A stretch of 64,000 nt of DNA from Stenotrophomonas sp. ASS1 (GTDB lineage Bacteria; Pseudomonadota; Gammaproteobacteria; Xanthomonadales; Xanthomonadaceae), in assembly GCF_004346925.1 (NCBI RefSeq), contig NZ_CP031167.1, positions 3,740,001 to 3,804,000 of the forward strand, in the 5' to 3' direction. A program made the translations under genes and the position numbers. Position 1 is the first letter of the stretch, and each line of letters begins with the position of its first letter. The notes below the pieces were generated by a model. That model saw only the letters and a list, made by a program, of their open reading frames with translations, made no database searches and was not told the origin of the DNA. Of this stretch, positions 60,143 through 64,000 are shown in pieces.

Positions 60143-61186
60143 ATGGCCCGCCTGCCCTCCCCTGCGATGCTGATGCGCGCGCCGCACCGGCTGCTGTTCT
60201 TCATCGGCGCCAGCAACCTGCTGCTGGCAATGCTGTGGTGGGCGTTGTGGCTGGGCGCATTGCGCGGGTTGTGGACGCCACAGCCACCATCGCTGCCACC
60301 AGCCTGGCTGCACGCGCTGCTGATGCAGTACATGGTGCTGCCCAGTTTCATCTTCGGCTTCCTGCTTACCGTGTTTCCGCGCTGGATGGCACAGCCGGAG
60401 CTGCCACGCAGCCGTTACGCGCCGGTCGGCATCGGGCTGTTTGGCGAGCAGGCGCTGCTGATTGCCGCCGCCTGCGGGTGGACACCCGGGCTGTGGCCCG
60501 GCCTGCTGCTGGCACTGGCCGGCTGGAGCGCCGGACTGATCGTGCTGGGACGCGTGCTCAAGGCCGCCGGTCCCAACCGCAACTGGCATGCACGCTCCTG
60601 CTATGCCGCACTGCTGCTGGGCTGGCTGGGGCTGCTGCTGTTCATGGCGGTGGGGCGCGGCCACGCCACGCTGATGCCGGTCACGGTGGCACTCGGCACC
60701 TTCGGCCTGCTGCTGCCGGTCTACCTCACCGTCGCGCACCGGATGATCCCGTTCTTCGCCAACAACGTGGTGGATGGCTATGTGGCGTGGCGCCCGCTGC
60801 GCTGGTTGGCTGCGATGTGGGCGCTGCTGATGCTGCGCCTGCTGTTGAGCGCGTTGCAGATCGACCACCTGCTGTGGCTGGCCGATGGGCCGCTGCTGAT
60901 GTTGTCGCTGCAGGCGCTATGGCACTGGTGGCCACGCGGGCCGATGCCGGGCCTGCTTGCCGCCCTGTTCCTGGCACTGGCGTGGCTGCCGATCAGCTTC
61001 GCGTTGTATCTGCTGCAGGACATCGGCCAGATGCTGGGCCATCCGCAACTGCTCGGCCGCGCGCCGCTGCATGCCCTCGCCGTGGGCCTGTTCGGCAGCC
61101 TGCTGGTGGCGATTAAACGGGCAGCTATAGTGCTGCACTTTTACTCAACCTATGGTTGCGCAAGGGCTGAAAACCTTTGGTTGTAA
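60143..61186 (+). pseudogene. NnrS-like heme-copper membrane protein, C-terminus lost by insertion
   Basis: NnrS proteins are polytopic inner-membrane proteins linked to nitrosative stress relief. This frame shows the family start (LMRAPHRLLFFIGASNLLLA), the YMVLPSFIFGFLLTVFPRWM block, and HRMIPFFANNVVDG. It remains family-like up to LHALAVGLFGSLLVA, where the usual continuation with M-x-x-R-x-x-x-GH-x-GR and about three more helices should follow. Instead it reads IKRAAIVLHFYSTYGC and stops after about 25 foreign residues. The change falls at about 61112-61114, where the DNA also becomes richer in AT. I therefore treat it as a truncated gene at an island junction. The start is uncertain (60095, 60143 or 60167). 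Confidence 0.8.
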
Positions 61187-61820
61187 GAGCCCACGGATAG
61201 GGCGGGCGTCACCGCTCACTGGCCCTAGCCATCGACCAATGGCAGAGAGCAGCGTCCTGATGCCGGTCCAAACTCGCCGATTCTTAGCAAACGAGCAGAC
61301 CTCTTGAAGGGACGGAGGAGGAGGACGGCCCTGGAATGCGGACGAAGCATCCAGTTAGTCCTAGCGACTCAGGAGCAGCAGTGGCCGCGATCGCCAGAGT
61401 AACGTTCGCATTGTCTCTCAAGCTGCCGGCCAGCGGCAGACGGCCAGCACTACCGCGTAGTTGTTCAGAGCATCCCTGAGTCGGTAGATCCTGGTAACAA
61501 ACAGCTGTTGCAAATTGCAAAAAGTGAAAGTAGTGTGCAGAACAGGCATAAGGAATGTGACTAAAGCTAATTGACATGCGTAAATTTAGAAAATCGCGGA
61601 CTCAAGGAAGAATCACTGGTCACTCGGACGCAGTCATCCGCGGACTCCTCAGCCACGCACAGCCACTAGCGACCAAGCCCGCTGCGCGGCCTATTATCAC
61701 CAATTCCGTGTACCGGGGACGCGTTGCCTGCCGGCGCGAACCCTCGTTTACAAATTGCTTTTCGGGTTCCAGCCCGAGCCTCGGCGCTAGGACTGCGCCA
61801 AATTAAAGAAGGAGTTTTAA
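61187..61820. other. Gene-poor, AT-richer left end of the inserted region
   Basis: I see no convincing gene in these 634 bases. They hold a SMAG-type unit in the first part (61423-61454) and, further right, AT-rich DNA with a TTGACA hexamer at 61571-61576 that lacks a good -10 partner. The stretch 61807-61820 carries the strong AAGAAGGAG ribosome site of the first precursor gene. The promoter of the peptide genes should lie here. Confidence 0.5.
61423..61454. repeat. SMAG-type palindrome in the island
   Basis: GCTGCCGGCCAGCGGCAGAC, then GGCCAGCACTACC, is a degenerate GTAG-type unit. Confidence 0.6.
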
Positions 61821-62018
61821 ATGTTCGAACTCGGAACAGCAATGCTGAAGCACGTTGCTGGTGGTCAACAAGCGCCATCGACCTCTACTTCAGGGAACAC
61901 CACCACTCTCACCTGTCCCGCGGGAACCACTCCGATGGTGGTTGTGTTTGGGCCGACAGGCGACTCAGGCGGTGGAGTTACTGTGACCTGCATTCCTGAT
62001 AGTCGTAGCCATTCCTAG
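61821..62018 (+). CDS. Double-glycine leader precursor peptide 1 (65 aa)
   Basis: The ATG at 61821 is set by AAGGAG ending eight bases upstream. The 65 residues divide into a 15-residue leader, MFELGTAMLKHVAGG, with the GG cleavage signal recognised by C39-peptidase exporters, and a 50-residue core that starts QQAPSTSTSG. The core is rich in Thr, Ser and Gly, has two cysteines (core positions 17 and 42) and contains CPAGTTP. It is likely cut and exported by the transporter encoded at 63270. It resembles class II bacteriocin or microcin precursors in layout, but I do not recognise the core. No modification enzyme is visible in the window. Confidence 0.75.
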   Translation: MFELGTAMLKHVAGGQQAPSTSTSGNTTTLTCPAGTTPMVVVFGPTGDSGGGVTVTCIPDSRSHS

Positions 62019-62121: not shown

Positions 62122-62319
62122 ATGCGCACGATCAAATCAAGTGAAATGGAATTCATCAGCGGCGCTGCACAGGCACCAAATTGCGTGGTAGTTACCGCCA
62201 ACATTACCGGCTCCAACGGCGTCTCCAGCCAGCAGGTCGCTGTCGTCTGCTCCTGCCCGGAGGGCACGACGATGTCAACCACGACCTCGGGCGGCACCAC
62301 CACCGCCACATGTAATTGA
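62122..62319 (+). CDS. Double-glycine-type leader precursor peptide 2 (65 aa)
   Basis: The start at 62122 follows an ACGGA ribosome site. It has the same design as precursor 1: a 15-residue leader MRTIKSSEMEFISGA (classic SSEMEFISG hydrophobic spacing, GA instead of GG) and a 50-residue core that begins AQAPNCVVVTAN. The core has four cysteines (core positions 6, 28, 30, 49) and contains CPEGTTM, matching CPAGTTP of peptide 1, and GGTTTATC near the end, like NTTTLTC in peptide 1. The two are probably related and exported by the same transporter. A strong hairpin follows the stop. Confidence 0.78.
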   Translation: MRTIKSSEMEFISGAAQAPNCVVVTANITGSNGVSSQQVAVVCSCPEGTTMSTTTSGGTTTATCN

Positions 62320-62350: not shown

Positions 62351-62373
62351 GAACGAAGCGAACAGGAGTGAAA

Positions 62374-63066
62374 GTGGTGATCAACCGCTATTTCTGCCCT
62401 CTGGTTCTGTCTGGAATCATCCTGTCGACCTGCCCTAAGCAGGCTACAGCTGAACCAGTTTCCGAAATCAATATATCGTCAGCGTCATCAGCTTGGAACT
62501 CATGCCAAGTCTTGAAAAAGGGGGTGGTCTATGTCCAAGGGAGTAACGCTCTATGCGTAAAGGGATATATCGACTACGACCTAGCAGACCAGTTTATGAC
62601 GCGAGTGAAGAATGCCGAGAGCATTGGACTCTCCATCGATCTTGTTTTAATTGAAAGCCAAGGTGGCGAGCTTCGTCCAGCCATACGGATTGCGAAGAAA
62701 ATTGAAGAACTCCATGCCAGCGTGGCTGTTGGCGGGATGTGTGCTTCCTCCTGCGCGCAGTTCGTATTCATGGCAGGGAGACAGAAGCTCCTGTTGAGGC
62801 AAAGCCATCTGCTTTTCCATGGCGGCCCTGTTTCCGAGCAGCAGATCAAGAGAATGAACCTTTCCGCCTCCGCAGTCTCCAGCCTGAATCGCCAAAATCT
62901 GGAAATGACTGAGTTTTATCAGGAGCGCAACCTCGACTTGCGGATGCTCACGGAACCACCGGCCAAAGTGCAGGCGCGAATTGACGCCGGAGAGATTGTC
63001 ATGTGGTCTTGGAGCAAGGCCGAACTTGAGTCCTTTGGCGTTACGGGACTGGCTCTTGAAGAGTGA
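62374..63066 (+). CDS. Periplasmic ClpP-like (COG3904-type) putative serine hydrolase
   Basis: The GTG at 62374 is five bases after AGGAG and is preferred to the GTG at 62368 that would overlap this site. The 230 residues begin with an N-terminal signal sequence (YFCPLVLSGIILSTC). The core follows the ClpP/crotonase fold of COG3904 periplasmic proteins: LIESQGGELRPAIRIAKKI (oxyanion loop), GGMCASSCAQFVFMAG with a Ser (125 or 126) at the nucleophile position, and LLFHGGP with a candidate His149. It could process or degrade the exported peptides or protect the producer; neither is shown. Base composition is AT-richer than the chromosome around it. Confidence 0.75.
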   Translation: MVINRYFCPLVLSGIILSTCPKQATAEPVSEINISSASSAWNSCQVLKKGVVYVQGSNALCVKGYIDYDLADQFMTRVKNAESIGLSIDLVLIESQGGELRPAIRIAKKIEELHASVAVGGMCASSCAQFVFMAGRQKLLLRQSHLLFHGGPVSEQQIKRMNLSASAVSSLNRQNLEMTEFYQERNLDLRMLTEPPAKVQARIDAGEIVMWSWSKAELESFGVTGLALEE

Positions 63067-63269
63067 ATACAATTTTCTTGAATTGATTCCATCTCTGATC
63101 GCCTCAGATAAAGCCAAATATTGACGCCAAGACGTGTCCGCATTGGAGCCGAGTTCTACTGGCACTCGCGGTACCAGAGAGCCGTTCGGCATATCACCAC
63201 AGGCCACCTCAAACAGTGCATTCTGCACGAATCGATTCACCCGTTTCATCGAAACCTGGATCAAGCTAC
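63067..63269. other. Intergenic gap before the exporter gene
   Basis: I see no gene here. The exporter frame is open back to 63087 but has no ATG before 63270, and the upstream part does not look like exporter sequence. Confidence 0.45.
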
Positions 63270-64000
63270 ATGGATGTCGTTCTCCAATCTGAAGCGGCTG
63301 AGTGCGGAATCGCTTGCTTGGCGATGATCGCCTCGCATCATGGTAATGCCATCGGCCTGCGCGAGATTCGTCGCCGGCACTCATTTTCACTTAAAGGCAC
63401 CTCTCTCCCTCAGTTAATCGCTGTCGCAGGCAAGCTTGGCCTACAGTCGCGTGCGCTCCGGTTGGAGCTTGACGAGCTGGATCAACTGAAACTTCCCTGC
63501 ATAGCTCACTGGGATCTCAATCACTTCGTGGTGGTACGCAAAGTTGAGCGGAACACGGTCACCGTCGTGGATCCGGCATTGGGAACGCGCAAGCTCGCAA
63601 TGAGCGAGTTCTCGAAGCACTTCACCGGGGTTTCCCTTGAGCTACAGCCTGGGGGCGATTTCCGCCGAATCCGTCGCCCGGAACCAACGCCGTTACCTTG
63701 GCTTACCGGAAGAATTAGAGGCCTTGGCAGATCGTTGGCCCTGCTGATCGTCCTCTCTCTTTCTCTGCAGATCTTCGTGCTTTCGGCTCCATTTTTTATG
63801 CAATGGGTGGTCGACCAGGCACTCGTTGCATCCGATCACAACCTTCTCTCTGTGCTGGCCGCTGGCTTCGGCTTGGCGCTTCTCATTCAAGTTGGTATCG
63901 GTCAGATCCGCGGCAGGTCGGTCATCTATTTGTCCAGCCGTCTGGGCTCACAATGGTCGGCAAACGTATTTAGCCACTTGATCAAACTACGTCTGGATTT
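63270..64000 (+). CDS. Peptidase-containing ABC exporter (C39 domain), 3' end outside window
   Basis: The first 243 residues of a PCAT transporter that cuts double-glycine leaders and exports the core peptide. The C39 peptidase domain (1-125) is complete: Gln6 and Cys12 in LQSEAAECGIACLAM, His85 in WDLNHFVVV, and Asp101 in VVDPALG, giving the papain-like triad. After a linker, transmembrane helices start at about residue 154 (LALLIVLSLSLQIFVLSAPF). The ATPase must lie beyond the window. The ATG at 63270 is the only ATG of the open frame before the peptidase motif. It is very probably the exporter of the two precursors upstream. Confidence 0.92.
   Translation, partial: MDVVLQSEAAECGIACLAMIASHHGNAIGLREIRRRHSFSLKGTSLPQLIAVAGKLGLQSRALRLELDELDQLKLPCIAHWDLNHFVVVRKVERNTVTVVDPALGTRKLAMSEFSKHFTGVSLELQPGGDFRRIRRPEPTPLPWLTGRIRGLGRSLALLIVLSLSLQIFVLSAPFFMQWVVDQALVASDHNLLSVLAAGFGLALLIQVGIGQIRGRSVIYLSSRLGSQWSANVFSHLIKLRLD

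Follow-up and report, generated by a model that had tools for sequence, protein, structure and literature searches.

NnrS proteins belong to NO-responsive regulons, and the family member has been described as a hypothetical haem-copper membrane protein (PMC1274295). Among mobile elements, Tn7-like transposons have arrays of transposase sites at both ends as their shared mark, and they frequently carry defence genes and other cargo (PMC8649781). Both descriptions bear on one locus in a Stenotrophomonas genome assembled as a single contig of 4.56 Mb. The window, meaning the whole stretch of 64,000 nucleotides that was analyzed (contig 3740001-3804000), ends inside a foreign segment of 6,565 bp (contig 3801114-3807678). 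We consider it highly probable that this segment is a decayed mobile island with a Tn7-like left boundary, that it split a normal nnrS gene of 402 codons, and that NnrS is very likely non-functional as a result. The features of the locus are as follows, in window coordinates unless the contig is named.

60143-61113, + strand: 5' part of nnrS, 323 native codons plus 2 nt (PF05940 columns 2-299; the alignment with 12 relatives stops at 61113)
61114-61186, + strand: foreign fused tail, 24 codons plus stop, read through the transposon left end (ORF translation)
61114-61408, + strand: Tn7-like left end, 295 nt, with terminus TAAACGGGCA (end homologues in G028, G082 and G040; G065 and X. citri plasmids match its inner part)
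61147-61160 and 61172-61183: transposase sites AACCTATGGTTGCG and AACCTTTGGTTG, respectively, in the left end
61409-61475, - strand: remnant of an IS5-type end, 67 nt, in opposite orientation to the copy at contig 3806831-3807084 (supported by inverted repeat pairs I1 and I3)
61821-62018, + strand: small peptide ORF 1, 65 aa, GG-type leader by eye (no match in the family search)
62122-62319, + strand: small peptide ORF 2, 65 aa, GA-type leader by eye (no match in the family search)
62368-63066, + strand: ClpP-related protein with a signal-like N-terminal segment (PF00574, E 1.8e-5; NF045542, E 7.5e-6)
63216-64000 and on to contig 3805378, + strand: C39-peptidase ABC transporter (PF03412, E 2e-39)
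contig 3805375-3806655, outside the window: HlyD adaptor
contig 3806831-3807084: second IS5-type remnant, 254 nt, with a transposase start
contig about 3807100-3807632: TrlF-like pseudogene fragment of ~530 nt with a stop codon and frameshifts
contig 3807633-3807678 (L009:8633-8678): insert end of 46 nt

A first-pass annotation, made from the letters of the window, had proposed that an nnrS-like gene is broken at 61112-61114 and continues into about 25 unrelated residues. Alignment with the DNA of 12 close relatives confirms this break to the base. The last nnrS base that matches the relatives is 61113 (L009:2113) and the first foreign base is 61114, and GC content falls across this step from about 69% to about 53-55%. 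The foreign tail comprises 24 residues (IKRAAIVLHFYSTYGCARAENLWL), giving a chimeric product of 347 aa. Its stop codon lies at 61184-61186, so the ORF ends at 61186 and not at 61190 as annotated. In a profile search, the ORF from 60143 matches only columns 2-299 of the 371 columns of PF05940 (NnrS; E 3e-35). The M-x-x-R-x-x-x-GH-x-G region that had been reported absent is indeed missing from this 5' part, and from its R onward it is kept only on a stranded 3' part.

That 3' part had been predicted to lie at the far end of the island, beyond base 64000, and it was recovered there. It occupies contig 3807679-3807910, outside the window and 6,565 bp downstream on the same strand, and it carries the GH-x-G motif and an intact stop codon. 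A profile search of the whole genome matches PF05940 columns 300-371 to contig 3807679-3807888, again on the same strand. The genome holds exactly two PF05940 places (3800170-3801120 and 3807679-3807888), which are complementary and co-linear; they are two parts of one gene, the sole nnrS of the genome. Its origin in the family is certain, but with the profile matched in two separate pieces rather than along its whole length, the gene is not an intact member.

The target can be read directly from the empty site in the 12 relatives, GCG ATG GTG ACC CGG GTC ACC CAG (A M V T R V T Q), which lies in the conserved MVTRVTQGHSG region of nnrS. The left side of the insertion retains codon 323 (GCG) and the bases AT, and the right side retains R327 (CGT for CGG) onward; codons 324-326 are gone except for these two bases. 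Just before R327 there is partial agreement with the relatives (ACCCCG for GACCCG), which leaves the right junction fixed only to within a few bases and puts the number of missing target nucleotides at 5-8. The short duplicated target that the first-pass annotation anticipated is absent at both junctions in the empty-site alignment, and these 5-8 nt are missing instead. They fall in the first half of GGTGACCCGGGTCACC, a perfect palindrome of 16 bp with its left edge precisely at the left junction. This palindrome is present in all 12 close relatives and is the only perfect one of at least 12 bp in the nnrS gene checked. Since 16-bp palindromes occur four times in the 64-kb window, landing on one by chance would happen about once in a thousand insertions, a figure to be read with the knowledge that the coincidence was noticed post hoc and that other insertion sites of related left ends have no such palindrome.

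At the left junction the insert opens with TAAACGGGCA. Homologous left ends in G028, G082 and G040 start from the same base (TAGACGGG) and have differing flanks, the inner part recurs in G065, and two X. citri plasmids carry a diverged relative of the region. Most of the related ends share the site AACCTATGGTTGCG, followed ~25 nt further in by AACC(T/A)TTGGTTG; the nnrS insert has its repeats at 61147 and 61172. Close to the tip, most also have an opposite-facing copy of the site; the copy in the nnrS insert (near 61120) is degenerate. When the left end or the 46-nt right end was searched for in family-wide samples, nothing turned up outside Stenotrophomonas, and in an exact scan of the species collection the only hit was S. 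rhizophila DE0483.

The left end in G082 belongs to an element of 23.8 kb (L071:9970 to L087:14795; G082:C11 about 226969-250794), which has both ends. Its right end bears several copies of the same site and an inverted terminal repeat, GGTTGCCCGTCTA. Among its products are TniQ, a protein matching TnsC chains (8fcu, 9bw1) and a 797-aa protein that has the 'Integrase' chain of PDB 9bw1 as a relative and is read as a TnsA-TnsB fusion. Homology to the G082 left end, with transposase-site arrays as a Tn7-like mark, identifies the left boundary of the insert in nnrS as a Tn7-like end. The cargo of the G082 element includes a 1696-aa STAND/NACHT-like ATPase and a protein-kinase gene. Also, related ends in G028 (L086:17760) and G082 (L071:9951) adjoin the same chromosomal gene in opposite orientations, which suggests a shared insertion hot spot.

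None of the ORFs in the nnrS insert encodes TnsA/TnsB, TnsC or TniQ, no transposase or integrase is kept, and no TnsAB relative was found anywhere in the genome. The right end has no matching site within 2 mismatches, whereas such an array is present in G082, and the 5-bp target duplication expected of a Tn7-like transposon was not found. The lack of both a duplication and a right-end array indicates that the right junction is no simple transposition product. Two IS5-type remnants flank the C39/HlyD cassette. Their homologues are degraded IS copies whose transposase C-terminus is of IS5 type, and the family was named by eye. The truncated TrlF-like pseudogene, named by reading of its sequence, is ~82% identical to sequence in two relatives. 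For the 46-nt end, the sole relative found is in G061 (L075:8591-8637), where a sequence about 87-89% identical lies beside an island with an integrase gene. Phage records gave no match to the insert. At 54.5% GC against about 69%, the insert is a mosaic, layered remnant. The annotation was right that the break marks the left end of a transferred segment; a single simple island does not fit a Tn7-like end combined with IS5-type pieces, a peptide cassette and a TrlF-like pseudogene. The composition shift placed at the break stands, and the peptide locus said to begin there is set back by ~360 nt of transposon end and IS remnant.

The best account of these features is that an intact 402-codon nnrS once existed here and received the 6,565-bp insertion at the left edge of GGTGACCCGGGTCACC. 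The most probable course is that a Tn7-like element transposed into nnrS and that its right end and most of its interior were afterwards replaced through IS events and deletions. We infer this order of events within the insert from what is left of it. Judged by membership, what is left amounts to the scar of a Tn7-like element and is not a complete Tn7-like transposon.

An unlikely alternative is that a tyrosine-integrase island recognized the nnrS palindrome and that the Tn7-like left end is mere cargo. A tyrosine recombinase would be well matched to a perfectly palindromic target, the G061 relative of the 46-nt right end lies ~5.5 kb from an integrase gene, and the X. citri plasmid relative has an integrase ~9 kb away. 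However, the left junction is, to the base, the terminus common to other Tn7-like ends, and direct reading finds no core sequence repeated at both junctions. Furthermore, there is no integrase within 90 kb of the insert, nor any near the left ends in G028, G082 and G040. A broader proposal, that a Xanthomonadaceae Tn7-like lineage targets palindromes inside ordinary genes, that of nnrS included, and spreads peptide-toxin export cassettes and defence genes, is doubtful.

The peptide-export cassette carries a recognizable C39 transporter and HlyD adaptor, with peptide leaders of GG and GA type as judged by eye and peptides that lack a family match. Many genomes of the genus have C39/HlyD loci, for the most part with no Tn7-like sites close by, and a search around 14 other such loci revealed no convincing sites. 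In G083 (L125, G083:C1:167001-187000), a C39/HlyD locus lies between two partial TnsAB genes and so shows that these loci can sit in Tn7-like surroundings. This case suggests that they can ride in or land in Tn7-like elements. The cassette in the nnrS insert might have travelled in on the Tn7-like element, or IS action might have added it later.

Comparison with relatives, at one genome per species, places the interruption in this genome alone among those aligned. The nnrS gene is uninterrupted, at 402 codons, in all 12 close relatives, and the insertion site is uninterrupted in all 25 aligned relatives. A short nnrS in related strains, or a natural subfamily ending at this point, had been named as the observations that would speak against a break, and neither was encountered. 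Taken with the partial profile match and the complementary piece downstream, this leaves the annotated break well founded. Both nnrS halves are free of internal stops and frameshifts, and dN/dS against the nearest relative is 0.14, with a median between relatives of 0.13. The two parts carry five amino-acid changes private to this genome. Because the halves are otherwise undamaged, the break looks recent on the scale of the relatives' divergence.

The last 79 codons have been severed or lost, and their region has residues invariant in the 25 aligned relatives. With these codons cut off and no second copy, NnrS function has very likely been lost. Life without nnrS is common in the genus, as the gene is patchy and gives a clear match in only 25 of 90 other genomes. 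It might be argued that the 347-aa truncated product still works as a short NnrS and that the insertion was functionally neutral, given that the frame of the 5' part is open and its dN/dS is low. This reading is highly improbable: no relative has such a form, the region that it lacks holds the residues invariant in 25 of 25 aligned relatives, and the stranded 3' part is just as undamaged, for which a recent insertion accounts. Least credible of all is an assembly artefact joining unrelated DNA, which has nothing but the mosaic look of the insert in its favor and can be dismissed for a single-contig genome rated 100% complete, in which both gene halves stand in order on one contig and flanking genes match relatives on both sides.

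Gene loss caused by the insertion of mobile DNA that has since decayed is an event of an ordinary kind, and the novelty of this example is low. The useful addition is a vehicle whose left end is assignable, by homology, to a Tn7-like lineage. The locus provides base-level proof of recent gene loss by mobile DNA in Stenotrophomonas. One conserved end links a Xanthomonadaceae Tn7-like lineage to remnants at several sites in genomes, and at one of these a peptide-export locus was brought in or was acquired later.

There are several ways in which the locus parallels known systems and departs from them. Relative to Tn7-like transposons with fused TnsAB, TnsC and TniQ (9bw1 and 8fcu relatives; PMC8649781), its left end is homologous to that of G082 and has similar subterminal repeat spacing, whereas the insert is without transposition genes, a recognizable right end and a target duplication. 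Relative to the C39/HlyD (microcin-like) loci of Stenotrophomonas, it shares the same transporter and adaptor with 14 other loci, at a transporter identity of 43-67%, but the two peptide ORFs and the ClpP-related gene are not found at those loci. Relative to the NnrS family (PF05940), the gene is alike over its first 323 and last 76 codons, in a locus arranged as in relatives, and differs by the 6,565-bp interruption.
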